A stretch of 64,000 nt of DNA, taken from assembly GCA_934504065.1 (NCBI GenBank), contig CAKSVQ010000001.1, forward strand, positions 35,347 to 99,346, written 5' to 3'. Positions 40,747 through 62,752 of the stretch are shown one piece after another. Source of the stretch: an uncultured Dysosmobacter sp. GTDB taxonomy: Bacteria > Bacillota > Clostridia > Oscillospirales > Oscillospiraceae. The translations under genes were made by a program, and so were the position numbers. The first letter of the stretch is position 1, and every line of letters starts with the position of its first letter. Under the pieces are notes generated by a model. The model searched no databases, was not told the DNA's origin, and saw only the letters and a list, made by a program, of their open reading frames with translations.

Positions 40747-40748
40747 AT

Positions 40749-45076: not shown

Positions 45077-45883
45077 ATGTCCATCTTCAAGCGTGGAAAG
45101 CACACCGCGTCGGCCGCCCCCCAGATGGCCGACGAGCGCCGCCATATTTTAAGCAACCAGAGCGACTTCTTTGTCCGCGAAGCCTATAAGACCCTGCGCA
45201 CCAACACCATGTTCGCCCTGGCGGACAAGGACGGGTGCAAAACGGTGATCGTCACCTCCTCCCTGCAAAGCGAGGGCAAGAGCATTACCGCCCTGAATCT
45301 GGCCATTTCCTTCGCGCTGGCCGAAAGCCGGGTCCTGCTGATCGACTGCGACCTCCGCCGCCCCAAGCAGGCGCGGCTGCTGCGCAAGAATACCCGCGCG
45401 GGTCTGAGCAACCTCCTGCTCCAGCCGGAGCTGCTGCCCAAGGCCGTTTTGCACACGGATGTGGAAAATCTGGACATCATCATTTCCGGCGATATTCCGC
45501 CCAACCCCTCCGAGCTTCTGGGTTCCGCCCGGATGGCGGCCCTGCTGGATCACCTGCGGGCGGATTATGACTATATCATTTTGGATACCCCCCCGGTCAA
45601 CATGGTCACCGACGCGGTGGTCCTCTCCTCCCGCAGCGACGGGGTGCTCTTCGTGGTGCGCTCCGGCCAGTCCGAGCGGGGCAGCGTGCTCCGCGCCGTC
45701 GAGCAGCTGGAGTACGCGCAGGCAAAGATCTTGGGCTTCGCGCTGGACGACGTGGTCGCCGCCTCCGGCGGAGGGTATGGCTACGGCAAGTATAAGCGCT
45801 ATCAGAAGTATAGCCGCTATGGCTACGGATACAGCAGCGGGTACGGCTACGAGCCCACCACCGCAGGCACCACCCAGTCATGA
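45077..45883 (+). CDS. BY-type protein-tyrosine kinase (CpsD/CapB)
   Basis: A 268-residue cytoplasmic tyrosine kinase with Walker A SSLQSEGKSITALNLA near residue 62, A' VLLIDCDLRRPKQ near 90 and B YDYIILDTPPVNMVTD near 160. The last 40 residues are Gly/Tyr-rich (GYGKYKRYQKYSRYGYGY) and form the autophosphorylation cluster. It regulates polysaccharide assembly with the preceding membrane modulator, and its opposing phosphatase is encoded by the overlapping next gene. Confidence 0.93.
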   Translation: MSIFKRGKHTASAAPQMADERRHILSNQSDFFVREAYKTLRTNTMFALADKDGCKTVIVTSSLQSEGKSITALNLAISFALAESRVLLIDCDLRRPKQARLLRKNTRAGLSNLLLQPELLPKAVLHTDVENLDIIISGDIPPNPSELLGSARMAALLDHLRADYDYIILDTPPVNMVTDAVVLSSRSDGVLFVVRSGQSERGSVLRAVEQLEYAQAKILGFALDDVVAASGGGYGYGKYKRYQKYSRYGYGYSSGYGYEPTTAGTTQS

Positions 45884-46608
45884 CGGATATACATACCCAC
45901 ATTCTCCCCGGCATGGACGACGGCGCGGCGGACGTGGAGACCAGTCTTTCCATGCTGCGCGCCCAGTGTCGGCAGGGAGTGGACGCGGTGATCCTCACCC
46001 CGCATTTTTACCGCCGCCGGGAGCATATCTCCCAGTTCCTCACCCGCCGCCGCGCCTCGGCGCAAAGGCTGGCGGAGGCCCTCATGGCCCTGCCGAAGGA
46101 AGAGGCCCGCGCCCTGCCCCGGCTGGCGCTGGGGGCCGAGGTGGCGTGGTTCCCCAACTTGGCCGACAGTGAGGACTTGGACCGCCTCACGCTGGGCGCC
46201 AGCCGCTGCCTGCTGCTGGAGCTTCCCTTCCAGCCGTGGACAGAGCAGATGCTTCGCCAGCTCTATGAGCTGCCCGGCCGCACCGGGCTCACCCCCATCC
46301 TCGCCCATCTCGAGCGGTATTTCAAAGGCCAGAAGCCCCAGTATATCGAAGCGGTGCTGGAGCTGGGCTTCCCCGTGCAGGTCAGCGCCGCGCCCCTCGC
46401 CCATCCCCTGCAAAGGGGCACGGTGCTCCGGCTGCTGCGCCAGCGGCAGGCGTGGTACATGGCCTCCGATTCCCATAACCTCACGGACCGTCCACCGGAC
46501 TTGGCCGAGGGTTTGGCCGTTGCCCGCCGCAAGCTGGGCGACAGTGTGGCCGACGCGCTGATACAAAAGGGTGATGAACTGTTTCGTCTCACCCAGTCTT
46601 CCAAATAG
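45880..46608 (+). CDS. PHP-family protein-tyrosine phosphatase (CpsB/CapC)
   Basis: A 242-residue metal-dependent phosphatase. It begins with the PHP motif TDIHTHILPGMDDGA (residues 2-16), has LTPHFYRR near 40 and EVAWF near 87, and ends in the metal-binding MASDSHNLTDRPP. It dephosphorylates the BY-kinase to reset the polysaccharide machinery. ATGA overlap with the kinase gene. Confidence 0.93.
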   Translation: MTDIHTHILPGMDDGAADVETSLSMLRAQCRQGVDAVILTPHFYRRREHISQFLTRRRASAQRLAEALMALPKEEARALPRLALGAEVAWFPNLADSEDLDRLTLGASRCLLLELPFQPWTEQMLRQLYELPGRTGLTPILAHLERYFKGQKPQYIEAVLELGFPVQVSAAPLAHPLQRGTVLRLLRQRQAWYMASDSHNLTDRPPDLAEGLAVARRKLGDSVADALIQKGDELFRLTQSSK

Positions 46609-46674: not shown

Positions 46675-49600
46675 ATGAAACCACGAACAAAAAAGCTCCT
46701 GTCTCTTCTGGTGACCTTTGCCATGCTGATCGGCATGATGCCAATGGCCTACGCAGATGAGACGACATCCGGCAACTCGCTAGATGACGCCGACGGCAAC
46801 GATTATTATGCCGTTGCGAAAATAGGTGACAAGACCTATGAGACGCTGCAAGCAGCCATCAATGCGGCTGAGAATGGCGCGATTATCACGCTGGACGAAG
46901 GCACGTTTGATCTTGAGCAGATCAAGGTCAGCGATGGTAAGAGCCTGACGTTTGTCGGTGCTGGTATGGATAAGACCACGCTGACTTATGGTAAAGAGGC
47001 CGTTTCCGGCAATTCTGATGGCGGTGGCGGTGCTTGTTACAGCTTTGATGGCGCTGGAGCCATTGCGTTCAAGGATATAACGCTCCGGGATAACATTGCC
47101 ACAAAAGATTATTTCCGTGGCTTTGTGCGGGCGTCTTCTATGAGCTTCGATAGCTGCAAGTTCACCAATGTTGCAGGTTATTGGGGCACGGGCGCAGTTG
47201 AATTTACGGATTGCGTTTTCGAGACAGATGTTGCCGAGAGCTTTGACATAAAGTGCTATTCCGGCACGTCCTTTACATTCAATGGTTGCACATTCCGGTC
47301 TCCTTATGGCTTCATTGACGCATATCGCACCTCCGCGCTGGATGGTGTCCGCGATATTTACGTCAAGAATTGTGAGTTCATTGGAACTGGTTCTTCTGCG
47401 GCTTCCAAGCCCGCTGTTCGTCTGTGCGACTATACACATGCGGCAGAGGGCGGCGCGTGGAACGTTTATTTCACTGGCGAAAACACGACTAAGAACATTA
47501 AGGTGGACTCTGTGACGGAAAGCGCCCTGTATGGTTGCCGTTACTACTCCGGCTATGATCCTCTGATGGGTACGGTTTATGTCGATGGCGTAAAGGTTTG
47601 GGAAAACGGCGCTGCGGTGACCGCTTCCGAGCCTGTTGCCAAGATTGGCGACACCGAGTACACCTCTTTGCAGGATGCCATCGCGGCGGCGCAGGATGAC
47701 CAGACGGTTACTCTGCTGAGCGACATTGACCTGTCTGCAACTGCAACGGTTTCCAACAAGACCATTACGCTGGATCTTGCTGGTTACACCATTTTCAATT
47801 CCGAAGATATTTGGAAGGGTAACGATTGGTCTTTGATTTCCGTCCGTGAAAACGGTGATCTGACCGTCACGGGCAACGGCACGCTGAAAGCCAAGGTAAA
47901 TGATTGCTACGCGTTGGATACGCAGGAAGATACTTCCGTGTTGACCGTGAAGAACGGTACGTTCATCGGTAATATTTCTGCGGTTTACCTCCAGCCGGGC
48001 ACGGTCTATATTGAGGGCGGTTCTTATTCCATCCAGCAGTTGAATACGAACAACGTGCAGGATGGCTATGGCCTGACGATCAACTGCTATGATAGTGATT
48101 ATAAAGATGGAACGGCGAAGGTCACTATCACGGGCGGCTCTTTCACGAATTTTAACCCCGCCGCTAATGAAGCCGAAGGCAAGGGCACGAATTTCGTTCC
48201 CGCTGGTTACACTGTTAAGCAGGATGGCAATGTTTACACTGTCGTAAAAGACAGCGTGACGGCAGAGACCCCCACGGTGGATACGACCACTGGTTCTGCC
48301 ACCACCACGGTCAGCGGCAAGCCTGCGGCGGGGGAGAGCACGATCACGGTGGATGCAAAGGCGGCAGGTTCTTCCACAGAGATCAAGTCCTCCACCGTTA
48401 CTGTGTCCAATGACACTCTGACGGCGATTGCGGATTCTTCTGTCGAGACTGTTACCATCGACACCAACGTCGGCTCTCTGACGGTCTCTAAGGACGCCCT
48501 GTCCACCATGGCCGAGGGCGCTAACGGTGAGGCTCTGGATTTGAAGATTGCCAAGACCGACGGCACGACCAGCGACAGCTATAAAGTGAAGTACACCCTC
48601 ACCGCCAAAGCTGGTGACGAGGATGTGTTCACTGCTTCTAATGGCGAAGTGAAAATCTCCGTCCTCTACACTGGCACCAATCCCGTGGTCTACTATGTCA
48701 ACGGCGAGACTTCGGAGAAGATGCCTTCCACGTATAAAGATGGCATCCTCACTTGGACCACCACTCACTTCTCCGATTTCGAGGTGCAGGAAGAGAAAGT
48801 AGTGACCGATGTAGCGCAGGTTACTACCAAAGCGGGAACTGTTGTTGGAACATATTCCACTTTACAGGAAGCGGTTTCTGCGGCAAAGACGAATTATATC
48901 GTAAAGATGCTGGCAAATGTGGAATTGTCAGAGCCGATTGCAATCAGTAATAGTATGACTCTCGACTTAAAAGGCTATACAATCAGTGCACCGGGTAGAG
49001 TCATCAATGTGAATACTAAGAATTGCAGATTGACTATTCAGGATAGTACTGCGACTCAGCCCACCGTGGATGGTGCATCTGTTACGGGGTATTCCGGTGG
49101 TAAAATCATTGGCACAAAAGGCTATGTTACTGCTATTTCTGTTGTGAACGGTGGTTCGCTAACGTTGAAGAGCGGCATGGTGCAGAGCGTAGAATATACG
49201 GCTATTTATGCAAATGGCAACTGCACTCCGAATAGTTCTGGCCAAATTGCGTCGAATATTAAGATCACAGGCGGTTATGTCAAGAGTCAGGAATACGGCA
49301 TTGGCGTGGCTGGTATTGGCGCGTCTTTGAATGTTAGCGGTGGCGTGATTGAGGCCATGGATAATGCGGCTGTGGCTGGTAACGGCACAAATGACAGTTC
49401 AGCTTACATGGGCGGCACGACTATCACGATTAGCGGCGGCAAGTTGGTGAGCCATATTCAAAGTAATGGCTTCATTGCTTGCGGTGTTTATCACCCGCAG
49501 GTCGGCAAGCTGAACATTAGTGGCGGTTCGATTTATGCCGACGGCGGTGTGGGCATCCTGATGCGTGGCGGTACGCTGAATATGACGGGCGGCACGGTGA

Positions 49601-52600
49601 CTGCTACGGGCACCACTGGCGGCAAAGTTGGCGACAGCAATGTTATCGCCCAATGCTACGGTGTGTATGTGGATGGTTCCGCGAGTTATTACGGCGCAAC
49701 GGAGGAGAATTTCGCCGCCAACATTAGCGGCACGGCTGCGGTGATGGCTACTGACGGTGTTCCCGCTTTGAATTTGAGCAGTAATTCCAATTCTACCTCT
49801 AAGGGAAGTATTGTTGTATCCGGTGGTACGTTCTCCAGCGCGGTTGATGCCAGCTATTGTCCGTATGACTTTACGCCAGCGGATAATGGTGATGATACAT
49901 ATGGAGTGAGCAAAAACCCCGAAGCAATGATCGGTAATGTGCAGTATGGTTTCCTGCAAGATGCTGTCAAAGCAGCTAAAACTGGTGAAACGATCATGCT
50001 CATGCACGATGTTGATTTGGATGCATTGGGTGTTACTGAAGTCAGTACTTATGGCATTAAGACCTCCAATGTTACACTTGATCTTGGTGGATATACTTTG
50101 AGTAGTTCAAGCCGTTGGACTCTATGTGTTGGAGCTCCGAATTGGACGGTACAAAATGGTACGATCAAGAATATGGATGCAACATCTAAATATGGCGCTG
50201 TATATATCATGAGTGCAAGTTCGACCACATTTAAAAATGTGAAGATCGAAAGTGCAGCTACCGGAATTTATTGTAAAATTGCCACTACTGCTAATATAGT
50301 CGCTTCGATAACGATTGAGGATAATACAGTAATTAGTGGCGGTACGTATGGCATTTATATGGGGGGCCCAATCAAGCCTTATGGTAAGACGACCAATGGT
50401 AAGGAACTTCTAACTGTAAATGGCGGCAGCATTAGTGGTGATACTGCTGGTATTGCAATTATTGGCGCAGGAAGCGGCAATACGGAAGCAGTTGTTAGTG
50501 CTACAATCAATGGCGGCACAATTTCCAGTTCCAAGGGCTTTGCGATTGCAGGTAATGGTAAAACCGCAGAACCCACTACTATCATTGTCAACGGCGGTAC
50601 AATTACTTCTGCTTCTGACGATGGTGCTGGTATTTATCATCCCCAGAACGGTACGCTGACTATCACTGGTGGCTCTATCAGCGGTGCAGTTGGCGTACAG
50701 ATGTGCGCCGGCTCCTTGAGCATCAGTGGTGAGCCTACTATCACTGCAACACAGGGTGATAAATCTGCGTCTAAGACTGGTGACGGTTCTATTTCTGACG
50801 GTGCGGCAATTTCCATTGTGGGTCGCACTGGCTATGCTGATCTTGGCACGGTTGAGATCAAGGGCGGTACGTTTAAGTCTGAAGAGGGCACTGCTGCTAT
50901 CAAGGCGTATGAGTGGAGTAACAATACTGCCAGCGACTTCGACAACAGCGATGATACTGTTTCCGTTTCCGGCGGCACGTTCTCCAGTGTTCCCAAAAAC
51001 ATAGCCGACCTCTGCGCTGACGGATTCACGACTGAGGTCAAAGAAGACGGCACTGTCAATGTGACAAAGAGTGCTGTGGCTGAAGTCAACGGCGTAACGC
51101 ATACCACCTTGAAGGATGCTGTTGCTGCCGCCAACGATGGTGACACGGTTACACTGCTGGCGAATGTGGACCTCGATGAACAGATCGCCCTTTCTAAGGC
51201 TATCACCATTGACGGTCAGAGTCGGTACACCATTAAGGCTACGAAGAAAATCGTTGGTGCCTCTGGTAAGGCTGGTATGTTCTACCGCACGACTTTCGCG
51301 CAGGGAACACTGACATTCCTGAATGTGACGCTGGATGGTAACGGCGTTTCTAAGATTTTCCTCAATGAAGGTGGCGCTGGCGAGACAGTGTTTGACGGTG
51401 TGACTTCCCAAAACGGCGGCGGAATCGCTTACGGTTCCGGTATCCACATTTCTGGCGATGGTTCCCATGCCACGATCAAGAACTCTACGCTGATCGGCAG
51501 CACGGGCACGTTGGAGCTGAATGAGACAAACTACTATGCGGCAAATGACCTGTGGGTCGGCGGCAACGTGTATGTTACTGTGGAAAACTCTACCATTGAT
51601 AAAGTGTTTGTTAACTCCGCTCCTTCTGCAACGGCAACGAACGGTGTCGTTCACGGTCAGCTGACGGTCACGGGTGAAAATACCAAGATCTACTATCTGT
51701 CCGGCGAGGAGGAGCGTGCAGACAAGGTCGATAAGTTTGGCAACAACGGCTCTTTGGTGAAGATCGAAGCAGGCGAAGTTGGCACGATTGTCGATAAGGG
51801 TAGCTACTCCATTTCCGGTGGTACGTTCAAGACCGAGGTCAAGAACGAGTGGTGCGCGATTGGTTACGAGCCGACGAAGGATGAAGTTATGAATCTGTAC
51901 ATCGTTGAAAAATCTTCTAAGCAGGCACATTACATCGATGCAGATGGCAAGGCAGTGTATGGTGACTTCCTGACGGCTCTTAATACGGCGAAGGAGAACT
52001 CCACAATCACGCTGGTGAATCCTGTGAATGTGACGGCTGGTAACAGTAGTAATGGGTTGGTCATCAAGAATGGCTATACTGTGGATATGAATGGCCAGAC
52101 GCTGACCTCTTCGTATGTGATCCTTGTCAACGGCGACATCAAGGATTCTACCGATGGCTCCGGTTTGATCAAGCTTTCTGGAAACTTTGGCACGATTAGC
52201 GGTTTGCAGGTGCAGATGGGCAATTCTCAGATGACCGTGTACGATTCCGATGCAGGCGGCTATCGGCTCTTCAATTGCTCTGCCGAAGTCATGGAAGGCA
52301 CGGTGAAGAAAGATAACAACAAGACAACGGCTTCCTTTGATTTCCGGTTTACCTTCACCAACAGCAAGGCATATGAGCTGCTGGCAAAAGATACCACGGA
52401 AGCGCTGAGCAAGTTGACAGTTAAGCTAAAGTTGACTTGGGGCAGTCAGGAATATGACTTTAAGTTTGCTCCCAGCATGTGGGCCAAGTATGGCGCTCAT
52501 ATGGCAGCCGGAGAGAATTATGGTATGTATCTGGATCTGTTCGGACTTAGCGGCGTGGCAGGAGAGACAATCGTCGGTACGCCGAGTCTCAACTCTGCAA

Positions 52601-52659
52601 CAGGCGCAGTTGAGAGTGGCTTTGACATCACGTGTGAAATCCCTACGGATGCAAAATAA
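46675..52659 (+). CDS. Very large secreted beta-helix surface protein without SLH or sortase signal
   Basis: A 1994-residue secreted protein. Signal peptide KKLLSLLVTFAMLIGMMPMAYA (cleavage after AYA near residue 28 in sequence). It is made of right-handed beta-helix repeats with recurring openers of the type IGDTEYTSLQDAIAAAQDDQ, followed by TVTLL(S/A)(D/N)(I/V)DL and a TLDL.GYT(I/L) strand, at about residues 50, 325, 750, 1110 and 1490. There is no SLH domain, LPxTG or transmembrane anchor, so attachment must be by another route. Base composition is clearly lower in GC than the surroundings, especially about 48.8-50.7 kb. AGGGAGG precedes the ATG. Confidence 0.82.
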   Translation: MKPRTKKLLSLLVTFAMLIGMMPMAYADETTSGNSLDDADGNDYYAVAKIGDKTYETLQAAINAAENGAIITLDEGTFDLEQIKVSDGKSLTFVGAGMDKTTLTYGKEAVSGNSDGGGGACYSFDGAGAIAFKDITLRDNIATKDYFRGFVRASSMSFDSCKFTNVAGYWGTGAVEFTDCVFETDVAESFDIKCYSGTSFTFNGCTFRSPYGFIDAYRTSALDGVRDIYVKNCEFIGTGSSAASKPAVRLCDYTHAAEGGAWNVYFTGENTTKNIKVDSVTESALYGCRYYSGYDPLMGTVYVDGVKVWENGAAVTASEPVAKIGDTEYTSLQDAIAAAQDDQTVTLLSDIDLSATATVSNKTITLDLAGYTIFNSEDIWKGNDWSLISVRENGDLTVTGNGTLKAKVNDCYALDTQEDTSVLTVKNGTFIGNISAVYLQPGTVYIEGGSYSIQQLNTNNVQDGYGLTINCYDSDYKDGTAKVTITGGSFTNFNPAANEAEGKGTNFVPAGYTVKQDGNVYTVVKDSVTAETPTVDTTTGSATTTVSGKPAAGESTITVDAKAAGSSTEIKSSTVTVSNDTLTAIADSSVETVTIDTNVGSLTVSKDALSTMAEGANGEALDLKIAKTDGTTSDSYKVKYTLTAKAGDEDVFTASNGEVKISVLYTGTNPVVYYVNGETSEKMPSTYKDGILTWTTTHFSDFEVQEEKVVTDVAQVTTKAGTVVGTYSTLQEAVSAAKTNYIVKMLANVELSEPIAISNSMTLDLKGYTISAPGRVINVNTKNCRLTIQDSTATQPTVDGASVTGYSGGKIIGTKGYVTAISVVNGGSLTLKSGMVQSVEYTAIYANGNCTPNSSGQIASNIKITGGYVKSQEYGIGVAGIGASLNVSGGVIEAMDNAAVAGNGTNDSSAYMGGTTITISGGKLVSHIQSNGFIACGVYHPQVGKLNISGGSIYADGGVGILMRGGTLNMTGGTVTATGTTGGKVGDSNVIAQCYGVYVDGSASYYGATEENFAANISGTAAVMATDGVPALNLSSNSNSTSKGSIVVSGGTFSSAVDASYCPYDFTPADNGDDTYGVSKNPEAMIGNVQYGFLQDAVKAAKTGETIMLMHDVDLDALGVTEVSTYGIKTSNVTLDLGGYTLSSSSRWTLCVGAPNWTVQNGTIKNMDATSKYGAVYIMSASSTTFKNVKIESAATGIYCKIATTANIVASITIEDNTVISGGTYGIYMGGPIKPYGKTTNGKELLTVNGGSISGDTAGIAIIGAGSGNTEAVVSATINGGTISSSKGFAIAGNGKTAEPTTIIVNGGTITSASDDGAGIYHPQNGTLTITGGSISGAVGVQMCAGSLSISGEPTITATQGDKSASKTGDGSISDGAAISIVGRTGYADLGTVEIKGGTFKSEEGTAAIKAYEWSNNTASDFDNSDDTVSVSGGTFSSVPKNIADLCADGFTTEVKEDGTVNVTKSAVAEVNGVTHTTLKDAVAAANDGDTVTLLANVDLDEQIALSKAITIDGQSRYTIKATKKIVGASGKAGMFYRTTFAQGTLTFLNVTLDGNGVSKIFLNEGGAGETVFDGVTSQNGGGIAYGSGIHISGDGSHATIKNSTLIGSTGTLELNETNYYAANDLWVGGNVYVTVENSTIDKVFVNSAPSATATNGVVHGQLTVTGENTKIYYLSGEEERADKVDKFGNNGSLVKIEAGEVGTIVDKGSYSISGGTFKTEVKNEWCAIGYEPTKDEVMNLYIVEKSSKQAHYIDADGKAVYGDFLTALNTAKENSTITLVNPVNVTAGNSSNGLVIKNGYTVDMNGQTLTSSYVILVNGDIKDSTDGSGLIKLSGNFGTISGLQVQMGNSQMTVYDSDAGGYRLFNCSAEVMEGTVKKDNNKTTASFDFRFTFTNSKAYELLAKDTTEALSKLTVKLKLTWGSQEYDFKFAPSMWAKYGAHMAAGENYGMYLDLFGLSGVAGETIVGTPSLNSATGAVESGFDITCEIPTDAK

Positions 52660-52684: not shown

Positions 52685-52855
52685 ATGAAGAAACCATACC
52701 AAAAGCCTGAGCTCGAAAAAATCACCTTTTCCCTTACGGATGAGTTGATGGACAGTGCCGCACTTCCCGGCACGGGGAGCAGTGCGGGTAGTCGTCCATG
52801 GGGTGCAGGCAGCGACTCGGATAGCGTAGTTGTAGACGGCTATCAATTATCCTGA
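52685..52855 (+). CDS. Candidate RiPP-type precursor peptide of 56 residues
   Basis: A short gene with the perfect site AGGAGGATAAC before the ATG. The leader MKKPYQKPELEKITFSLTDE contains Y-x-x-P-x-L (YQKPEL), the motif by which lasso-type leader peptides are recognised by PqqD-like proteins. The rest is Gly/Ser/Asp-rich (PGTGSSAGSRPWGAGSDSDS) and ends DGYQLS with a C-terminal Ser. In paeninodin-type systems an HPr-kinase-like enzyme phosphorylates the C-terminal Ser, and exactly such a gene follows, overlapping by one base (TGATG). Core position and modification are inferred. Confidence 0.65.
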   Translation: MKKPYQKPELEKITFSLTDELMDSAALPGTGSSAGSRPWGAGSDSDSVVVDGYQLS

Positions 52856-53553
52856 TGCTTTACAGCATCGCGGAACTTCTCACCGAAGTTCCGGCAGCGG
52901 GAGGCATGGCCTCCCGCTGCCGGAACTACGTGACAACCGAATCTCGACCTGCCCAAATCGTGATTTCCGAAGAGCGGTATGAGCCGGAGATTTGGAAAAA
53001 CACAAGTTATGATGATGCGATTTATCTGGAATCCGGCTTCCAATTTTACTGGGGCCTGCTCCGCTATTCCGGGCTGATGCTCCACGCCTCGGCAGTGGCG
53101 CTGGGGGGCAGGGCGTACCTGTTCTCCGGCCCCTGCGGGCGGGGCAAGTCCACCCACACCCGCCTGTGGCAAAAGACTTTCGGCCCGGACGCGCAAATTT
53201 TCAACGACGATAAGCCCGCCCTCCGGCGGCTTGACCGCTGGTATGCCTACGGCACGCCGTGGTGCGGCAAGGACGGGCTGAACCGCAACCAGAAATGGCC
53301 GCTGGGCGGCATCTGCTTTCTGGAACAGGCGGCGGAAAACCGCATCCGGCGGCTGACTCCTGCCGAGGCCCTGCCGCTGGCGCTGGCCCAGACGACCTAC
53401 CGTCTCCAGCCCCGGAGTATGGAATTGCTGCTTGCGGCGCTGGATGCGCTGCTGCGGGAGGTGCCGATTTTTCTGCTGGAAAATCGGCCAGACGAAGCGG
53501 CCGCCCGCCTGAGCTATGAAACGATGCGCCGCGCCGCAGAGGAGGAATTATGA
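52855..53553 (+). CDS. HPr-kinase-like P-loop protein, candidate peptide kinase
   Basis: A 232-residue protein with the HprK C-terminal fold. After a family-typical LMLHASAVALGGRAYLFSG (residues 79-97) comes the P-loop GPCGRGKSTHTRLW (about 93) and the acidic IFNDDKPALRRL near 115, then TPWCGKDGLNRN. It lacks the N-terminal domain of true HPr kinase. It is coupled to the peptide gene in front and to the PqqD-like gene behind (ATGA overlap). Homologues in lasso and related clusters phosphorylate precursor peptides on Ser. Confidence 0.75.
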   Translation: MLYSIAELLTEVPAAGGMASRCRNYVTTESRPAQIVISEERYEPEIWKNTSYDDAIYLESGFQFYWGLLRYSGLMLHASAVALGGRAYLFSGPCGRGKSTHTRLWQKTFGPDAQIFNDDKPALRRLDRWYAYGTPWCGKDGLNRNQKWPLGGICFLEQAAENRIRRLTPAEALPLALAQTTYRLQPRSMELLLAALDALLREVPIFLLENRPDEAAARLSYETMRRAAEEEL

Positions 53554-53816
53554 AACTCAAGGAAAATTTCATGCTGCGGCAGGTGGCCGGCAGCTATGTG
53601 GTGGTGGCCGTGGGCGACGCCTGCGTGGATTTCGACGGTATGCTGACCCTGAACGAAAGCGGCGCGCTGCTCTGGCGCACGCTGGAGCAGGGGGCCGACC
53701 GCGACGCTCTGACCGCCGCTCTCACGGCGGAATACGACGTACAGCCGACGCAGGCCCGGGCCGACGTGGAGGAATTTCTTGCCTCCCTGCGGGATGCCGG
53801 ATGTCTGGACGAGTGA
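53550..53816 (+). CDS. PqqD-like peptide chaperone (RRE)
   Basis: An 88-residue PqqD-family protein. The pattern FMLRQVAGSYVVVAVGD, FDGMLTLNESGALLWRTLEQG and TAEYDVQPTQARADVEEFLASL follows the winged-helix of RiPP recognition elements and of PqqD. It would bind the leader of a precursor peptide and present it to modifying enzymes. It overlaps the kinase gene by ATGA, so peptide, kinase and chaperone are made together. Confidence 0.82.
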   Translation: MKLKENFMLRQVAGSYVVVAVGDACVDFDGMLTLNESGALLWRTLEQGADRDALTAALTAEYDVQPTQARADVEEFLASLRDAGCLDE

Positions 53817-53843
53817 GGTAAAACTCCCATTTCAAGCAAATTA

Positions 53844-53889
53844 CGCAGCATTTCCACGCTGCGGATCGGGCCGGAAACGGCTCCGGCCC
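53844..53889 (+). promoter_or_regulatory. Two hairpins between the PqqD-like and secreted-protein genes
   Basis: CGCAGC/GCTGCG (53844-53863) and GGGCCGGA/TCCGGCCC (53868-53889) stand one after the other without a T-run. They could lower read-through or protect the upstream message end, setting different expression for the two halves of the cluster. Confidence 0.45.
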
Positions 53890-53926
53890 GTCCCGGAACG
53901 CGGAGATGATTTCTAAGAGAGGTGGT

Positions 53927-54967
53927 ATGATGAAACGAGCAATTTCCCTGCTGCTGTCACTGTGTCTGGCGGCGGCACTGCTGGCGTGTCCCGCAGGCGC
54001 GGCTTCCACCCAGCAGCAAAACCGGGCCGACGCGCTGAACAGCCTGCACCTGTTTTTGGGTACGGGCACTGCCAAGGGCTATGACCTTGACAGCAACCTC
54101 AACCGTAATCAGGGCGTCATTCTGCTGGTGCGCATTCTGGGCAAGGAGCAGGAGGCCGAAAACGGCGGCTTTACCCATCCCTTCACCGATGTGCCCGCCG
54201 GGGCCGCCGGGGCGGTGGCGTATGCTTACAGCAACCACATCGTCAACGGCTACACCGCGACGGCCTTCGGCGGGAGCGACACCATGTCCGACACCCAGTT
54301 CCTTGCGCTGGGCTATACCGATAAGGGCGACGCACCGGACTTTACCTACGCCGAGAGCCGGACGTTCGCCCAGCAGCTGGGTCTGGTGACAAGCGCCGAG
54401 CACGACGCCGCCTTTACCCGCGGCGACGTGGTGGAAGTGGTGTGGAACGCCCTGAACGCCAAGCTCAAGGGGCAGGAAAAGACTCTTGCCCAGCAGATGA
54501 TGGAGCAGGGCGTGTTTACGCAGGCGCTGTTCGACAGCGCGGCTGACATTGCCAAAAACGGCAAGCCATCCTCCGGCGGCTCGACCTCGGGCGGTTCTTC
54601 TTCCGGTGGGTCGTCTTCTGGAGGTTCTTCTTCCGGCGGGTCCAGTTCTGGCGGGGCGACCTCTGGAGGCTCTACATCCGGTGGTTCAACCTCCGGTGGT
54701 TCTTCGTCTGGTGGTTCGACCTCCGGCGGGTCCACTTCCGGCGGGAGCAGCGAGACGGTGAAGAAGCCCGGCGACGTGACGTGGGAAGAATACGAAGCCA
54801 TGTCCGGCGCGGAGCGGCAGGAGCACTTCCAGCAATTTGAGTCTCCCAGCGATTACCTTCAGTGGATGAACGAGGCCAAGGCCGCTTACGACAAGACCCA
54901 TCCCACCATTGAGGTGGGCCCCGGCGGCAACGTGGACCTGAGCGAGATCATCAAGGGCAACAGCTGA
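53927..54967 (+). CDS. Secreted SLH-like protein with Gly/Ser linker
   Basis: A 346-residue secreted protein. Signal peptide MMKRAISLLLSLCLAAALLA, then a region of about 180 residues like two degenerate SLH repeats (NRADALNSLHLFLGTGT, VILLVRILGKEQEAE, FTDVPAGAAGAVAYAYSNHI). A long low-complexity linker of GGSTSGGSSS units (about residues 207-268) leads to a charged C-terminal helix segment (VTWEEYEAMSGAERQEHFQQ). The role is unclear; it could be a wall-attached substrate or partner of the peptide system. The ATG at 53927 or 53930 follows AGAGAGGTGGT. Confidence 0.75.
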   Translation: MMKRAISLLLSLCLAAALLACPAGAASTQQQNRADALNSLHLFLGTGTAKGYDLDSNLNRNQGVILLVRILGKEQEAENGGFTHPFTDVPAGAAGAVAYAYSNHIVNGYTATAFGGSDTMSDTQFLALGYTDKGDAPDFTYAESRTFAQQLGLVTSAEHDAAFTRGDVVEVVWNALNAKLKGQEKTLAQQMMEQGVFTQALFDSAADIAKNGKPSSGGSTSGGSSSGGSSSGGSSSGGSSSGGATSGGSTSGGSTSGGSSSGGSTSGGSTSGGSSETVKKPGDVTWEEYEAMSGAERQEHFQQFESPSDYLQWMNEAKAAYDKTHPTIEVGPGGNVDLSEIIKGNS

Positions 54968-55431
54968 TGAACGGCAAGACCGTGCCCATGGCCCAGCTCA
55001 CCCCGCTGTTGGAGGAGATCCTGCGGCAGGGTGGACGGGTGGAAATGACCGCCACGGGCCGCAGTATGGAGCCGCTGCTGCACGACCGGGAAAGTCAGGT
55101 GCGGCTGGGTCCGCCAAGGCCGCTGCGGCGGGGCGACATCGCCCTTTACCGCAGGGATTCCGGCGGGTACGTGCTGCACCGGGTCACGGCGGCGGGTGAG
55201 CGCTATACCTGCTGCGGCGACGCCCAATGGGCGCAGGAGCGGGACATCCGGCCCGATCAGATCGTGGCCGTGACCGAGGCGTTTACCGTGCGTGGCCGCT
55301 GGGTGAGTGTCGGGGCGCTGCGGCACGGCGTTTACTGGCATATCTGGCTGGCGCTGCGCCCGGTGCGAAGACTGGTCATCGGCGGGAGCCACCGCATCCG
55401 GCGGCTGCTGGCCCACGGAGGCGGCGCATGA
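54967..55431 (+). CDS. S24/S26 signal-peptidase-like protein
   Basis: A 154-residue protein with the S26 Ser motif MTATGRSMEPLLHDRESQVRL (Ser near residue 32), then RRGDIALYRRDSGGYVLHRV, the box where the catalytic base lies. It has no clear membrane anchor apart from a C-terminal hydrophobic stretch (YWHIWLALRPVRRLVIGG). Proteins of this shape accompany ABC exporters in lasso-like and related peptide clusters and may trim the peptide leader. It overlaps the secreted-protein gene by 1 base and the transporter gene by 4 bases. Confidence 0.78.
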   Translation: MNGKTVPMAQLTPLLEEILRQGGRVEMTATGRSMEPLLHDRESQVRLGPPRPLRRGDIALYRRDSGGYVLHRVTAAGERYTCCGDAQWAQERDIRPDQIVAVTEAFTVRGRWVSVGALRHGVYWHIWLALRPVRRLVIGGSHRIRRLLAHGGGA

Positions 55432-57071
55432 AAAGTGGACACGACGCGCTGCACGCGGCGCTGGCTCCCTGCCGCCGGGCAGGAGCCGCCCTGTCGGCAC
55501 TGACGGGGGTACGGTCGTTGGCGCTGGTGGCGCTGGCGCTCACTTCCCGGGGCGTTCTCAACAGCGCCCCCGGAGGCGACGGATTTTTTCTCTGGTGCGC
55601 GGCGCTGGGCATTCTGAGCATCGTCATCCCCCTTTTGAACAGCGCACTCAGCGCATTTTCCGGCCGCATCACCGACCGGACGTGCGCCGAGGTGCGGCAA
55701 ACCCTGTTCGCGCAGTTACAGCATAAGGACTGCGCATCCCTTCGCCATTATCACAGCGGGCACCTGTTCAGCCGCCTGACCGGGGACTGTGCAACGGCCT
55801 GCCAGCAATATACTTCTCTTTACCCCAGCATTTTCGGCCAGCTCATGCAGCTTGCGGGCGCGTTCATTGCGCTATGTGTGCTGCGGCCAGCGCTGGCAGC
55901 GGTGCTTACGCTGTGCGGCGCGGCAGCCGCGGCAGCCGGACTGGTGTTCCGCCGCTTCCTCAAGGGGAAGCATCTTGCGGAGCGCCGGGCCGGAGAGGGC
56001 GTGACCGCCTGCTTGCAGGAGGGGCTGGAGCAGCTGGAGACCGACCGCGTGACGGCCTCCCCCGGGGAGACGGTGGGGCGGTTTTCGGCCCGGCAGACGC
56101 TTTGGCTCCGGGTGCGGGAAAGTCTGCGGCGCTGTTCCATCGGCGGCTGGCTGGGATTTTCCCTTCTGGTGTATCTAGGCTCCGGCGGAGCCATTTTATG
56201 GGGCGCGCTGTCCATCCGGGCAGGGACGCTGACCATCGGTGACCTGACGGCCATCTTGCAGCTGATTGGACTGTTCCGCTCGCCCGTTACCGGGCTGACC
56301 GGAGTGCAGAGCCAGTTCGCCGCGGCAGACGCCGCCCGGGAACGGCTGGAAGCGCTGTGGTCGCTGCCGGAGGAGCCGACTGGGCCCGCCATACCGCCGC
56401 AGGCCCAGTGCCGTGCGCTGGTGCTGAAAGACCTTACCTTTACCTATGAGGGCGAGGAGCGTCCGGTTTTCAAGGGCGTGACCGCCCGCATCCCGCTGGA
56501 CGGCTGGGTCTGCCTGACCGGGGCCTCCGGCCGGGGCAAGAGCACGCTTTACCGCCTGATTTTAGGTTTGTACCATCCCCAGAAAGGGGAGATCCTATTA
56601 GAGACCGACCGCGGGACCTTTCCCTGCGGAGTGGAGACCCGGCAGTTTTTCGGCTTCGTGCCGCAGGAGCCTGCGCTCTTTTCCGGCACGGTGCGGGAGA
56701 ACCTGTACCTGAGCCGTCCAGACGCTTCTGACGAGGCGCTGTGGCAGGCGCTGGAGGATGCGGAGTGCGGATTTTTGAAAGCGCTCCCGCTGGGGCTGGA
56801 CACACCGCTGGGCGAGGGAGGGCAGGGCCTTTCCGCCGGACAGCGGCAGCGGCTGGCCATTGCGCGGGCGCTGCTGCGGCCATCGCAGGTGCTGCTGCTG
56901 GATGAGATCACCTCCGCGCTGGACGCGGAGACGGAGCGGCGGGTGCTGCACAAGCTGCAAGCACACTATCCCGCCGCGCTGACGGCCACCCACCGCACCG
57001 AGACCCCCATGGAAATGCAGATGCGCCTCCTGAAGCTGGAGGAATGGACGGCAGGAGGCGAAGACCATTGA
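55428..57071 (+). CDS. ABC transporter, fused permease and ATPase (exporter type)
   Basis: A 547-residue half-transporter with a six-helix membrane domain (about 1-310) and ATPase. Walker A TGASGRGKSTLYRLI near residue 363, Q-loop GFVPQEPALFSGTVREN, signature LSAGQRQRLAIARALL near 467, Walker B VLLLDEITSALD near 489 and switch His in LTATHRTET. It lacks a C39 peptidase domain, consistent with a separate peptidase upstream. It likely exports the processed peptide or a related substrate. ATGA overlap with the S26 gene. Confidence 0.9.
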   Translation: MKSGHDALHAALAPCRRAGAALSALTGVRSLALVALALTSRGVLNSAPGGDGFFLWCAALGILSIVIPLLNSALSAFSGRITDRTCAEVRQTLFAQLQHKDCASLRHYHSGHLFSRLTGDCATACQQYTSLYPSIFGQLMQLAGAFIALCVLRPALAAVLTLCGAAAAAAGLVFRRFLKGKHLAERRAGEGVTACLQEGLEQLETDRVTASPGETVGRFSARQTLWLRVRESLRRCSIGGWLGFSLLVYLGSGGAILWGALSIRAGTLTIGDLTAILQLIGLFRSPVTGLTGVQSQFAAADAARERLEALWSLPEEPTGPAIPPQAQCRALVLKDLTFTYEGEERPVFKGVTARIPLDGWVCLTGASGRGKSTLYRLILGLYHPQKGEILLETDRGTFPCGVETRQFFGFVPQEPALFSGTVRENLYLSRPDASDEALWQALEDAECGFLKALPLGLDTPLGEGGQGLSAGQRQRLAIARALLRPSQVLLLDEITSALDAETERRVLHKLQAHYPAALTATHRTETPMEMQMRLLKLEEWTAGGEDH

Positions 57072-57835
57072 AATTGAAAAGCAAAAAGGGCCGCTGGGCG
57101 GCGGCCATCATCGGGATACTGATCATACTGGCGGCGCTGGTGCTCTGGCACTTCCGCGCCGAGCTGCACGCCCTTTCCGTTGCCCGTCAGTATACCCCGG
57201 AAGAGTTGGAGGACCAGCTCGCGGGCAACGACCAGACCGTGCAGGACGCGGTGGATGCCGCGCCGGACGTAAATGTCCGCGCCCCCACCGAGGAAGAACG
57301 GCAGGCGCTGAAGGACGGCAGCATCACCGAAGAAGAGCTGATCCAGCGCATTACCGAAGGCGGCAGCGGCAACTCCGGCATTTCCGACTCCGCCGCTTCC
57401 GGTCCCAGTACCTCCGGCGGCAGTGCGGCGCCCACCGCACCCGCCAACCAACTCCCTGTTTCTTCGCAGGAACCATCCTACTCCCAGCAGCTTTCCGCGC
57501 TGGTGGCCCGGGTGTATGTCCTGCGTGAGGAATATCTCAACGCGCTGGCGAATATGGAGTCCGCCGCCAAGGCAGACTACCGAGCCATCCCCGAATCCCA
57601 ACGCACCGCAAGGCGTCTTGCGTCGCTGGCCAGCAGCTATCTCTCGCGGGCCAACGCCCTTGAAAAGCAGTGCGATGCGCAGATGGATGCCGTTATCGGG
57701 GAAATGGAGCGGCTGATCCAGCAGAACCATGGCGACATGAGCCTGCCGCAGACGGTCTACGATTCCTACGCCAATGAAAAAAGTCTTAAAAAAGCGTGGT
57801 ATCTTGCCCGCTTAGAAGAGAAAGGATTGATTTGA
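57068..57835 (+). CDS. Membrane-anchored hypothetical protein with disordered linker and helical end
   Basis: A 255-residue protein with an N-terminal membrane helix (WAAAIIGILIILAALVLWHF), an acidic region (TPEELEDQLAGNDQTVQDAV), a Ser/Gly/Ala/Pro linker near 100-130 and a helical C-terminal part (LVARVYVLREEYLNALANMES). No family recognised. The chosen start is TTG 57068 with AGGAGG 9 bases upstream, overlapping the transporter stop (TTGA); an ATG at 57044 has its purine run too close. It is co-expressed with the transporter and may be a partner at the outer face of the membrane. Confidence 0.6.
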   Translation: MKLKSKKGRWAAAIIGILIILAALVLWHFRAELHALSVARQYTPEELEDQLAGNDQTVQDAVDAAPDVNVRAPTEEERQALKDGSITEEELIQRITEGGSGNSGISDSAASGPSTSGGSAAPTAPANQLPVSSQEPSYSQQLSALVARVYVLREEYLNALANMESAAKADYRAIPESQRTARRLASLASSYLSRANALEKQCDAQMDAVIGEMERLIQQNHGDMSLPQTVYDSYANEKSLKKAWYLARLEEKGLI

Positions 57836-59155
57836 ATGAAGCAGAAAATTGCAGCAATTCTCACCGCCGTGATGCTGGTATGCCTCACGATCCCGCAGGC
57901 ATTTGCCGTGACTAAGTATCATGTCACGGTCACGCTCTCCGGCCCGGATGGCAACGGTGTGACGCGCACCATCTCCGCCGACACCGGTGACGGCACCACC
58001 ACCACCAAGCTGGCCGCCGAGGTCGTTGGCCTGCTTGGCGAAAAGTATTCCGAGATCGAGACCACCTTTGCCGGGACTGGACTGCGCAGCATTGTGGATG
58101 ACGGCCGCACTGCTTTCGACAACGGTTCCTCCGCGTGGGAGGCTTATGTCAGCGGCTTTACCGGGGACATGAACAACCCTGCTTTCAAGGCACAGCTTGC
58201 AAGCCTTGACACCACTTATGCCGATCTGACGGTGAACGCCAGCAACGTGCTGACTTATCAGGGCTACACCCTGACGGTCACTCTCAAGAGCACCTCCACG
58301 GGCTCCAGCTCTGGTGGCTCCGGCGGCAGCTCCGTCAAGCAGCCCACGGATGAGGCCACCACGACCACCACTGTGAAGAATGCTGATGGCTCCACCACGA
58401 CCATCGTGAAGGACAACGCCACCGGAAAGATGACCGTCACCGTTTCCGGCGCTTCCTCCGCTAAGGTCGCTCTGCCCGCTTCCAACCTGCATCCCGGTCT
58501 GGTGGCTGTGGACGCAAACGGCGATGTGGACCCCAAGTCCATCGTCACCAATGACGGTGTGGTCACTGTGATCTCCGGCACGGAGACTGTGACCGTTGAG
58601 GACCGCTCCAAGGACTTCACCGACATCCCCGCCAGCTACTGGGCACATGACGCGGTGGACTATGTTTCCGCTCGCGGCATGATGAATGGCACCTCCGCCA
58701 CCACCTTCTCTCCCAACGGCTCCGTTACCCGCGGTATGATCGCCGCCATTCTGTACCGTCTGGAGAGTGAGCCGGGCTTCAAGAATGCCAGCAACTTCAG
58801 CGACATTCTGAACGGCCAGTATTATACCGACGGCGTGCAGTGGGCTGCTGAAAACGGTGTGGTCACCGGATACAGCGACGGCACCTATCAGCCCAACCAG
58901 TCCATCACCCGTCAGCAGTTCGCCGCCATGCTGTACCGCTATCTGGGTCAGCCCGCGGTGGACGATCAGGCGACCCTGAACTTCTCTGACGCCGCACAGG
59001 TCAGCACCTATGCCCAGTCCGCCATGAAGTGGGCGGTGAGCAACGGCCTGCTGCAGGGCAACAACGGCCAGCTGAATCCCAACGGTCTGCTGACCCGCGC
59101 CCAGTGCGCTACCATCCTCATGCGCTTCAACACCTACGTGATGAACAACCTGTAA
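57836..59155 (+). CDS. Secreted protein with three SLH domains
   Basis: A 439-residue protein: signal peptide KIAAILTAVMLVCLTIPQAF (cleaved after AFA), a beta-rich N-terminal domain (KYHVTVTLSGPDGNG, YTLTVTLKSTSTG), a Ser/Gly/Thr linker near 160-190, another beta segment, and three SLH domains at about 255-435 (FTDIPASYWAHDAVDYVSARG, FSDILNGQYYTDGVQWAAENG, FSDAAQVSTYAQSAMKWAVSN). It is held on the cell wall by pyruvylated secondary polymer. It directly follows the membrane protein (TGAATG junction), and its hairpin terminator ends this operon. Confidence 0.9.
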   Translation: MKQKIAAILTAVMLVCLTIPQAFAVTKYHVTVTLSGPDGNGVTRTISADTGDGTTTTKLAAEVVGLLGEKYSEIETTFAGTGLRSIVDDGRTAFDNGSSAWEAYVSGFTGDMNNPAFKAQLASLDTTYADLTVNASNVLTYQGYTLTVTLKSTSTGSSSGGSGGSSVKQPTDEATTTTTVKNADGSTTTIVKDNATGKMTVTVSGASSAKVALPASNLHPGLVAVDANGDVDPKSIVTNDGVVTVISGTETVTVEDRSKDFTDIPASYWAHDAVDYVSARGMMNGTSATTFSPNGSVTRGMIAAILYRLESEPGFKNASNFSDILNGQYYTDGVQWAAENGVVTGYSDGTYQPNQSITRQQFAAMLYRYLGQPAVDDQATLNFSDAAQVSTYAQSAMKWAVSNGLLQGNNGQLNPNGLLTRAQCATILMRFNTYVMNNL

Positions 59156-59349: not shown

Positions 59350-61254
59350 ATGGCCAGACAAAAGATCACAAGACGGGAACTTGCCGTCGTACTGCTGGAT
59401 ATTCTCATTCTGGCGGCTGCGGACGGACTGGCGCTGCTGACGCGCTTTGACTTTTCCTTCAGCAGCATTCCAACGGAATACCTGCATGCGTGTATGCACC
59501 TTTTCCCGGTGCAGGTCGTGCTCACGGTGCTGATTTTCGGCTTTTGCCGGATGTACAGCTATGTGTGGCGCTCGGTCAGCGCCCGGGATGCCACGGAAAT
59601 GCTCCTTACCGCGCTGGTCGCCGGGTGTGTCAGCTTTGTCGCTGGCAGCCTGATGGGGTTGCAGATCCCCCGCAGTGTGCAGTTCCTTTCGATTTTCTTG
59701 CAGGTGACAGCGTTCACGGGTATGCGGTGTGTGCTGCGAGTCTATGAGTCGCTGCGGCGGCTGCGCGCCGTTCCCAGCAAGAAGGGCGATTCGCCCCGCA
59801 TCATGCTGATCGGTGCAGGTGAGGCGGGCCGGGTGCTGCTGCGGGAGAGCATGTCCAACAACAGCGCCCACGGGCGCATCTGCTGTGTGATCGACGATGA
59901 CCGGGAAAAGTGGGGCAAATACCTCAATGGTGTGCCCATCGTAGGTGGACGGGAGTCCATCCGCGAGGCGGTGAAGAGCAAGCAGATCGACCAGATCATT
60001 TTTGCCATTCCCTCGCTGGGATTGCAGGAAAAGAAGGACATTTTGAACCTGTGCAAGGACACGGGCTGCCGTCTGCGGATCTTGCCGGAGATTTATAAAA
60101 TGATGGACCATCAGGGCGACATCAGCATGGCCGTGGTGCAGGATGTGCAGATGGAGGACCTGCTGGGCCGCGACCCCGTCCGGCTGGATACTGACATGCT
60201 GAAGGATTTCCTTGGCGGCAAGACGGTGTTGGTCACCGGGGGCGGCGGTTCGATCGGCAGTGAGTTGTGCCGTCAAATCGCAGTATATCAGCCGAAAAAG
60301 CTGATTATAGTGGACATTTATGAAAACAACGCCTATGACATCCAGCAGGAGTTGCTCCGCAATTATGGCCGGGAATTCCCCCTGCAAGTGGAGATCGCTT
60401 CCGTGCGGGATAAGGAGCGCATCTATCAGATCTTTGCCGATTACCGTCCGGACATTGTGTTCCATGCCGCCGCCCACAAGCACGTTCCTCTGATGGAGGA
60501 GTGCCCGGAGGAGGCCGTGAAGAATAATGTCTTCGGCACGTGGCATGTGGTGCGGGCCTCCGAAAAGTTCGGCGTTTCCAAATTCGTGATGATCTCCACG
60601 GACAAGGCGGTGAACCCCACCAACTTCATGGGCGCGACCAAGCGCTTCTGCGAGATGATTTTGCAGAGCCGCCGCCACAGCCCCACGGAGTTCTGTTCGG
60701 TGCGCTTTGGCAACGTGCTGGGCTCTAACGGCTCGGTGGTGCCCCTGTTCAAAAAGCAGATCGCTTCCGGCGGCCCTGTGACCATTACGGACAAGCGTAT
60801 CACTCGCTTTTTCATGACCATCCCCGAAGCCGCCCAGCTGGTGCTGGAGGCTGGAGCCATGGCCCGGCAGAGCCAGATATTCGTGCTGGATATGGGTGAG
60901 CCTGTGAAGATTCTGGAGCTGGCGGAAAACCTGATCCGCCTGTCCGGACTGGAGCCCTACCGGGATATTGCCATTGAGGAGATCGGCCTGCGCCCCGGCG
61001 AGAAGCTGTATGAAGAACTGCTGATGCGCAGCGAGACGCTGTCTGCCACGGCCAATAAAAAGATTTTTGTGGAACAGCAGCAGGAAATCGACGGCGAAGA
61101 GATCATGGGGGACCTCAAACAGTTGGACCGCTCGCTGGCCGAAGGCTGCACCCCGCAGGAGCTGATCGCCCAGTTCCGCCATATGGTGCCTACATATCAT
61201 GACCCTGACGAGGTGAATAAAAAGGTGGGCGAGGCCCAGCTTTCCGCCGTGTAA
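59350..61254 (+). CDS. FlaA1/CapD-type nucleoside-diphosphate-sugar dehydratase/epimerase
   Basis: A 634-residue membrane enzyme of the WbpM/PglF/CapD family. Four N-terminal membrane helices (to about 120), a CoA-binding-like Rossmann domain (MLIGAGEAGRVLLRES near 152) and a C-terminal SDR domain with VLVTGGGGSIGSELCRQI near 295, the catalytic SMATDK-like MISTDKAVNPTNFMGATKR near 415. It makes a 4-keto-6-deoxy (or 4,6-dehydratase) UDP-GlcNAc-type precursor for surface glycan. In other Firmicutes it directly follows the Wzz-kinase-phosphatase genes, here 13 kb upstream. AGGGGAGGGAAGC precedes the ATG. Confidence 0.93.
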   Translation: MARQKITRRELAVVLLDILILAAADGLALLTRFDFSFSSIPTEYLHACMHLFPVQVVLTVLIFGFCRMYSYVWRSVSARDATEMLLTALVAGCVSFVAGSLMGLQIPRSVQFLSIFLQVTAFTGMRCVLRVYESLRRLRAVPSKKGDSPRIMLIGAGEAGRVLLRESMSNNSAHGRICCVIDDDREKWGKYLNGVPIVGGRESIREAVKSKQIDQIIFAIPSLGLQEKKDILNLCKDTGCRLRILPEIYKMMDHQGDISMAVVQDVQMEDLLGRDPVRLDTDMLKDFLGGKTVLVTGGGGSIGSELCRQIAVYQPKKLIIVDIYENNAYDIQQELLRNYGREFPLQVEIASVRDKERIYQIFADYRPDIVFHAAAHKHVPLMEECPEEAVKNNVFGTWHVVRASEKFGVSKFVMISTDKAVNPTNFMGATKRFCEMILQSRRHSPTEFCSVRFGNVLGSNGSVVPLFKKQIASGGPVTITDKRITRFFMTIPEAAQLVLEAGAMARQSQIFVLDMGEPVKILELAENLIRLSGLEPYRDIAIEEIGLRPGEKLYEELLMRSETLSATANKKIFVEQQQEIDGEEIMGDLKQLDRSLAEGCTPQELIAQFRHMVPTYHDPDEVNKKVGEAQLSAV

Positions 61255-62514: not shown

Positions 62515-62550
62515 AAAAAGACCACTACGGTAAACGTAGTGGTCTTTTTG
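62515..62550 (-). terminator. Terminator after the tRNA-Ser genes
   Basis: AAAAAGACCACTACG pairs with CGTAGTGGTCTTTTT and carries T-runs in both directions. It begins directly at the CCA end of the first tRNA on the minus strand and also separates it from the chrA genes. Confidence 0.88.
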
Positions 62551-62641
62551 GCGCGGAAGGAGGGATTTGAACCCTCGCGGCGGTTTTAGCCACCCTACTC
62601 CCTTAGCAGGGGAGCCCCTTCGGCCTCTTGGGTACTTCCGC
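62549..62641 (-). tRNA. tRNA-Ser (GCT anticodon), CCA encoded
   Basis: A 93-base class II tRNA on the minus strand. Acceptor arms GCGGAAG and CTTCCGC pair; anticodon loop CTGCTAA lies between CTCCC and GGGAG; a long variable arm follows; T-loop GTTCAAATC is present. The G-CCA end is genomically encoded and merges with the terminator stem. Reads AGC/AGT serine codons. Confidence 0.95.
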
Positions 62642-62664
62642 AGGTCGATGGTGTTCTATAAAAA

Positions 62665-62752
62665 TGGCGGAGAGAGTGGGATTCGAACCCACGGAGACTT
62701 GCGCCTCGCCGGTTTTCAAGACCGGTTCCTTAAACCGCTCGGACATCTCTCC
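62665..62752 (-). tRNA. tRNA-Ser (TGA anticodon), CCA encoded
   Basis: An 88-base class II tRNA on the minus strand. Acceptor GGAGAGA with TCTCTCC, anticodon loop CTTGAAA between CCGGT and ACCGG, a long variable arm, T-loop GTTCGAATC, and an encoded CCA. Reads TCA/TCG serine codons. It is transcribed before the GCT tRNA from the same promoter. Confidence 0.95.

Follow-up and report, generated by a model that had tools for sequence, protein, structure and literature searches.

A probable LPP-like phosphopeptide cluster without a cyclase among cell-surface genes of an uncultured Dysosmobacter

We describe here an operon from an uncultured Dysosmobacter sp. that is centered on the gene of a small peptide of the RiPP type (ribosomally synthesized and post-translationally modified peptide). 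It lies in a stretch of 64,000 nucleotides of contig CAKSVQ010000001.1; this whole stretch is called the window, and coordinates are those of the window. The order of the genes is giant surface protein, peptide, kinase, RiPP recognition element (RRE), stalk with an S-layer homology (SLH) domain, signal-peptidase homologue, ABC exporter, membrane protein and SLH protein. The first seven are as follows:

46675..52659, + strand: giant secreted surface protein, 1994 aa; its stop is 25 nt before the peptide start
52685..52855, + strand: RiPP-type precursor peptide, 56 aa (MKKPYQKPEL...GYQLS), with leader motif residues Tyr5 and Pro8
52855..53553, + strand: HprK/PEPCK-fold kinase, by AlphaFold model and Foldseek matches to PEPCK/HprK-P
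53550..53816, + strand: PqqD-type discrete RRE (Pfam PqqD, 8e-19)
53927..54967, + strand: stalk protein with a signal peptide (by eye), one SLH domain (2.3e-4), a Ser/Gly-rich linker and a conserved C-terminal domain (54749-54967)
54967..55431, + strand: signal-peptidase homologue, candidate LppS-like leader peptidase; no N-terminal transmembrane (TM) helix by eye
55428..57071, + strand: ABC exporter with fused membrane and ATPase domains (Pfam ABC_tran 1e-25, ABC_membrane 1e-13)

AGGAGG stands upstream of the peptide start (52685). Overlaps link the peptide stop to the start of the kinase gene (1 nt), and likewise the genes of kinase and RRE (4 nt), of stalk and peptidase (1 nt), and of peptidase and exporter (4 nt). 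The layout claimed in the initial annotation (a YQKPEL peptide, a kinase, a PqqD-like RRE, an SLH protein, an S26-type peptidase and an ABC exporter, with stop/start overlaps) is thus real. Against a profile of the leader the peptide scores 34.4 bits, being itself among the profile sequences, and a second sequence, P0121, is near-identical to it (95%). A plasmid search with the peptide-kinase-RRE stretch gave 0 matches.

The kinase sequence has 0 matches in a Pfam scan and weak ones in NCBIfam (ScmC, 1.3e-5; HprK_rel_A, 6.6e-4). Its AlphaFold model (pLDDT 94.8) matches PEPCK and HprK/P structures in Foldseek with E-values of 3e-6 to 5e-6. Among 7999 scored sequences 3363 are kinase homologues, and of the 120 homologues listed, only P0089 lacks a precomputed PF27840 assignment. 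The window's S26 copy has no significant family match in Pfam and NCBIfam scans; in all five relatives tested TIGR02228 (archaeal-type signal peptidase I) is the best hit, each time below cut-off, and a Ser / HR / GD pattern is present in 104 of 106 homologues. The NCBIfam matches of the exporter include MsbA_rel, below cut-off.

A kinase-profile scan of genome contigs yielded 70 loci, mostly from Oscillospiraceae and other Clostridia (71 with the window); one of them, L014, is from a culturable relative, Flavonifractor sp. An82. Counting a peptide as near the kinase when a leader match falls between -2500 and +120 nt from the kinase start, 39 of the 71 loci have a peptide, 38 a peptide and an RRE, 32 also the S26 peptidase, 23 the stalk as well, and 11 the ABC exporter in addition. 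When the kinase is at least 46% identical over its full length (n=29), a leader-profile match lies within 6.5 kb in 28; in the sole exception, L015, the sequence starts 20 nt ahead of the kinase match. No leader match was seen in L036, L041 and L045, where the 46-50% identity covers part of the kinase. Together with the PqqD match and the HprK/PEPCK-fold model, the near relatives bear out the earlier proposal of a RiPP-type peptide-kinase-RRE unit. From more distant kinases 80 further wide loci were taken, mostly in E-value order. The kinase, RRE and S26 peptidase occur together in 46 of them, and a leader match lies within 6.5 kb in 12 (several of them doubtful), as against 43 of the first 70. 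Not every kinase of this fold, therefore, is partnered by the peptide. The initial annotation had made conservation of the peptide beside the kinase its own test; this conservation holds among the near relatives but in only a minority of the distant loci, and, judged from sequence, the pairing is a trait of the branch of the window and of some other branches.

A broad kinase profile is found in 29/63, 50/250 and 148/246 genomes of three families. Such kinases are thus common, at least in the last of the sampled families, and only part of them have a recognized peptide nearby. One genome can hold several kinase sets with differing peptide cores (L066 and L181 in G035; L007 and L018 in one isolate), so that the cores seem to be specific to the set rather than genome-wide.

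Two other kinds of peptide were seen beside related kinases. Cys-rich peptides with repeated CxxDGxC are encoded some 3.8-4.3 kb past the start of the kinase in L040, L050 and L064, each immediately before the only PqqD hit of its locus; these look like another RiPP type. In a deltaproteobacterial and an Omnitrophota metagenome-assembled genome (L069 and L070), YxxP peptides with AILTGC/AILSGC and Cys/Ser-containing cores stand directly upstream of the kinase.

A literature search for this gene combination, made by listings, gave one matching paper, the main text of which describes Linear Polyphosphorylated Peptides (LPPs; Popov et al., 2026; PMC13381572). According to that text, LPP clusters lie in capsule loci and code for a kinase, an RRE, an SpI peptidase, an MsbA-like exporter and an NTP-transferase, without a cyclase. 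Phosphorylation, with multiple phosphates on Ser3 of the core, is the main modification. The peptidase LppS cuts the leader with the help of the RRE, leaving a linear, leader-cleaved, phosphorylated peptide, and in a crystal structure Asp70 of the RRE, LppB, bonds the leader Tyr. The leader consensus is given as Px9Fx[T/A] (YxxPxVLxHQxIxFETxxS), by which Ser3 falls at Y+18 (PMC13381572). The window shares with LPP clusters the YxxP leader, an HprK-like kinase adjoining a discrete RRE with a Tyr-reading Asp, the ABC exporter, the lack of a cyclase and the capsule locus. The SpI-type (archaeal-type, SipW-like) peptidase of LPP clusters, with its Ser/His/Asp residues, has as candidate counterpart the window homologue with Ser33, His71 and Asp97, which has no significant family hit; the spacings, counted by hand, are close to those of LppS Ser29, His68 and Asp93. 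With a constant shift of two, LppB Asn33, Tyr60, Asp70 and Phe74 correspond to Asn35, Tyr62, Asp72 and Phe76 of the window RRE, and in a profile alignment to 9x8z Asp72 falls on an LppB Asp. Across the loci, excluding two without a readable motif, Asp72 is present with 30 of 33 Tyr leaders and 0 of 9 Phe leaders (Fisher P = 4.9e-7). On the kinase tree the Asp changes 3 times and Tyr/Phe 6 times, and since there are only 3 Asp changes we do not count the Fisher value as independent evidence.

The comparison of leader and core used 42 peptides, a single one from each locus, scoring at least 14 for the leader and lying -2500 to +120 nt from the kinase start; the core was taken from Y+17. The peptides are preceded by a ribosome-binding motif (4 nt of AGGAGG) in 35 cases. 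In the leader, Pro stands at Y+3 in 41, Glu at Y+6 in 34 and Phe at Y+10 in 27; beyond, the sequence is variable. The YxxPxL motif of the initial annotation is conserved in the form [YF]xxP. The cores are rich in Asp, Gly, Glu and Ser. Every one of the 42 contains Ser (shuffled mean 35.7, P 0.0004; 0/5000 shuffles in another run). Of the ten residues tested, Thr (36 cores vs. 34.7 expected) and eight others are without significant excess. Trp occurs within the last eight residues of 14 peptides, where 7.5 are expected (P 0.0034).

In paeninodin-type lasso peptides the kinase site is the C-terminal Ser. The window peptide does end in Ser, and a conserved, lasso-like phosphosite there had been suggested; we reject it, as only 3 of the 42 peptides end in this residue, and the phospho-Ser of LPPs is the third of the core. 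Most likely the predicted phosphorylation site is Ser24 (Tyr+19), near the place of LPP Ser3; Ser is found at Y+19 in 13 of the 42 peptides, the window's included.

Cyclase genes were sought among 55 of the open reading frames (ORFs) of the window, and partner genes in 35 relative genomes chosen from those behind the 70 loci. No Asn_synthase, Transglut_core3 or NTP_transf_5 match was found among the 55, which agrees with the reported absence of a lasso cyclase and B2 protease from the window. B2 is over cut-off in 0/35 relative genomes and weak in 2/35, Asn_synthase not having been searched in the relatives. NTP_transf_5 is present in 33/35, and in G004, G006, G019 and G014 it lies within about 6 kb of a kinase.

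Of the two alternatives originally offered, remote lasso genes or a distinct system with phosphorylation as the main modification, the second fits best, given that cyclase-free LPPs are known and that B2 is over cut-off in none of the relative genomes. We think that the cluster in the window is likely to be LPP-like, to make a phosphopeptide without a cyclase and to serve the cell surface, its catalytic steps and surface role being what we infer; its genes probably make and export a small linear peptide that bears phosphate. Several observations weigh against this reading. The LPP consensus Px9Fx[T/A] does not apply, since Phe is at P+7 here and not at P+10: the P+7 residue is Phe in 27/42 and Leu in 10, HQ and FET are not conserved, and the window sequence is YQKPELEKITFSLT. 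An NTP-transferase belongs to LPP clusters, and none was found among the scanned window ORFs. When the RRE profile is compared with RREs in the PDB, LppB (27.2 bits) is the lowest-scoring of four lasso/LPP proteins, behind the lasso B1 proteins TbiB1 (41.1), TfuB1 (36.9) and PbaB1 (33.3). The Tyr/Asp pairing comes down to 3 Asp changes, where independent pairs agree in 1-2 of 3 with 0 opposite, and the sign test is not significant. An exporter is near only 25/71 kinases by the ABC profile, all five parts being together in just 11/71, and a leader match, in some cases doubtful, lies within 6.5 kb in only 9 of the 46 distant kinase-RRE-S26 sets. Because the leader spacing differs and the RRE is closer to lasso B1 than to LppB, we call the cluster an LPP-like variant.

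The pathway that we propose would start with binding of the YQKPEL leader to the RRE by strand addition, Tyr5 being held by Asp72. The RRE would present the peptide to the HprK-fold kinase for phosphorylation at a Ser in the acidic core; the likeliest target is Ser24, not the C-terminal Ser. The LppS-like peptidase would then take off the leader and the ABC exporter secrete the linear phosphopeptide; the phosphate may be capped by an NTP-transferase whose gene lies elsewhere. Once outside the cell, the peptide may act jointly with two proteins, the giant of the gene immediately upstream and the anchored stalk, in an exopolysaccharide context.

The giant protein and the stalk set the operon apart from LPP clusters. 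The giant of the window has no Pfam match at 0.01; in 24 other loci, an iterated profile built on its C-terminal 330 aa finds a homologous module in the ORF that precedes the peptide (E at most 5e-31). We looked for an ORF on the strand of the peptide, 250 aa or longer and ending no more than 60 nt upstream of the peptide start, dropping L029, L030, L066 and L199, in which upstream sequence is lacking. Such an ORF abuts the peptide in 33 of 40 evaluable loci, as against 119/2820 (4.2%) in a random small-ORF control; 23 of the 33 are of at least 1000 aa (median 2437 aa). The test fails in L008, L018, L023, L027, L168, L191 and L239, with a giant ORF 215-255 nt upstream in L018 and L027. Giant-peptide pairs can also lie in tandem (L019/L288, L007/L296). 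Contigs other than that of the kinase gave six giant C-terminal modules at which the protein ends; a peptide follows two of them (L283, L294) and is lacking after the other four (L284-L287). Behind three further modules on the kinase contig of L008, about 10-22 kb off, a peptide was found in 0/3. L295 runs far past the module and has no peptide, and L292 and L293 show no stop. The stalks have in common a C-terminal domain of about 60 residues (alignment of 26) on differing anchors, namely SLH, lipobox or TM by eye. The model of this domain is helical (pLDDT 78), and a fold search gave no PDB match at E of 0.001 or less.

Elsewhere in the window (26003-32197, - strand) there is a second giant surface protein (2065 aa), which combines three SLH domains with an InlB B-repeat-like one.

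The peptide C-terminus was compared with every ORF of at least 100 aa of its locus in 56 loci. In five of these (L027, L054, L066, L030 and L199) the C-terminal residues of the peptide recur at the end of a neighboring surface protein, the match ending at most one residue from the C-terminus. The partner is a 1604-aa protein in L027, and an SLH or SLH-like stalk protein in the other four. In each locus 0 of about 1190 background ORFs score as high; the weakest is L199, with a score of 29 vs. a background maximum of 28 and a weak leader match of 10.5 bits. A stalk-like secreted protein lies between peptide and kinase in five loci, and the tail is shared in four of them, not in L032. The three genomes tested (L054, L066, L027) each have two occurrences of the tail pattern and no more, one in each of the two neighboring genes, and 0 of the reversed pattern. 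The shared tails are not fresh copies, since codons for the same residue are identical in only 21/43. The window has no tail sharing: the best local score, 25, is reached by 13/1187 background ORFs, and DGYQLS occurs once in its six frames. The match in L061 (score 30) was not counted, as it is not at the C-terminus and 2/1199 background ORFs score as high.

A leader-free scan of small against large ORFs gave 17 pairs at a score of at least 30 (random control, 2). It recovers L054, L027, L066 and L030, and adds as candidates a second pair in L027 and single pairs in L229, L173, L231, L205, L058 and L017. Five pairs in L026 were set aside as repeats on the non-coding strand (by eye), and one in L216 as a fragment resembling the end of a larger ORF.

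The tie to surface proteins that had been suggested is thus supported by the large ORF upstream in 33/40 loci, by the stalk in many of the operons and, in some relatives, by shared tails, which hint that the peptide works at the cell surface. The large, mostly giant ORF directly upstream of the peptide, the stalk with its conserved C-terminal domain and the tails shared by peptide and surface protein are, as far as the literature search goes, newly described here; in the main text of PMC13381572, where the final product of LPP clusters and the roles of LPPs and paeninodins are stated as unknown, the terms Clostridi, Oscillospir, surface, S-layer, SLH and adhesin do not occur. The three features offer testable handles on the role of LPP-type peptides, and a surface role, if true, would mean an unnoticed layer of gut-bacterial surface biology. 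A tentative extension is that the peptide may be a matched surface tag: giant adhesin genes would come with a RiPP gene of their own, and a cluster-specific tail could end both the anchored surface protein and the soluble phosphopeptide, the two being recognized or assembled via one partner. The RiPP would in that case be a built-in part of the surface or capsule architecture, or of a recognition code, and not a diffusible antibiotic.

Hypervariable cores, an exporter and the uneven occurrence of the broad kinase profile across the three families would also suit a bacteriocin or a signal peptide, with the surface genes as mere neighbors in an exopolysaccharide island. We consider this unlikely in view of the large ORF within 60 nt upstream in most evaluable loci, the two giant-peptide pairs on contigs without a kinase and the tails common to peptide and surface proteins.

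The signal-peptidase homologue could instead be devoted to cutting the Sec signal peptides of the giant and the stalk, leaving the peptide, kinase and RRE as a separate regulatory unit. SipW, the B. subtilis signal peptidase that works with TasA, has an N-terminal TM helix. Like the window peptidase, a putative archaeal-type enzyme, it is of the archaeal type and near surface proteins, and its model NF046067 weakly matches 3/5 relatives; the overlap of the peptidase gene with the stalk gene would also suit a Sec role. The window copy, however, lacks the TM helix by eye and is encoded with a kinase and an RRE, and no TasA-family match was found among the 55 window ORFs. Moreover, the kinase, RRE and S26 peptidase keep together in the 46 distant loci, most of them without a recognized peptide, and for LppS, a peptidase broadly of this type, RRE-aided leader cleavage is described in the main text of PMC13381572. 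A Sec peptidase for the surface proteins thus appears quite improbable.

Paeninodin-like phosphorylated lasso clusters resemble the window in the HprK-like kinase, discrete RRE, exporter and [Y/W]xxP leader; the window differs in having no cyclase or B2 match, a leader Tyr rather than Trp, and a C-terminal Ser that is not conserved. A phosphorylated lasso product, with the genes of its cyclase and B2 protease at some other place in the genome, would suit the RRE, which scores closest to lasso B1 proteins, and the kinase-RRE pair, but is very improbable with no Asn_synthase or B2 in the window ORFs scanned and B2 over cut-off in none of the 35 relatives. With PQQ biosynthesis the window has the PqqD-fold RRE in common, here discrete and beside a kinase (other pqq genes being covered by the Pfam scans only). 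HPr kinase, PqqD and nucleotidyltransferase genes are described in passages of PMC7533575 from many rumen genomes, in a lasso-cluster setting; in PMC12710340 and PMC7470986, checked for these terms only, kinase, signal peptidase and Clostridi do not occur.

The operon ends in two further genes and has capsule-type genes on both sides (45077, 45880, 59350):

45077..45883, + strand: CpsD-like ATPase of a capsule/exopolysaccharide locus, BY-kinase type by context (Pfam AAA_31 1.7e-13), outside the RiPP core
45880..46608, + strand: CpsB/CapC phosphatase of the capsule/exopolysaccharide locus (Pfam CpsB_CapC 8e-37)
57044..57835, + strand: membrane-anchored protein (by eye), no significant family match; only itself found in the 71 loci
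57836..59155, + strand: secreted protein with three SLH domains (Pfam SLH 3e-35, 3 stretches)
59350..61254, + strand: polysaccharide biosynthesis epimerase/dehydratase, exopolysaccharide locus context (Polysacc_synt_2 2e-120)

Farther out, a chromate transporter gene pair (61346-62451 and 62549-62752, both - strand) lies beside two tRNA-Ser genes. On the other side, genes of a PP-loop ATPase, a class-V aminotransferase, ThiF and XdhC form one run (37994-42073, - strand), which perhaps, as a guess, serves the maturation of molybdenum/selenium enzymes.

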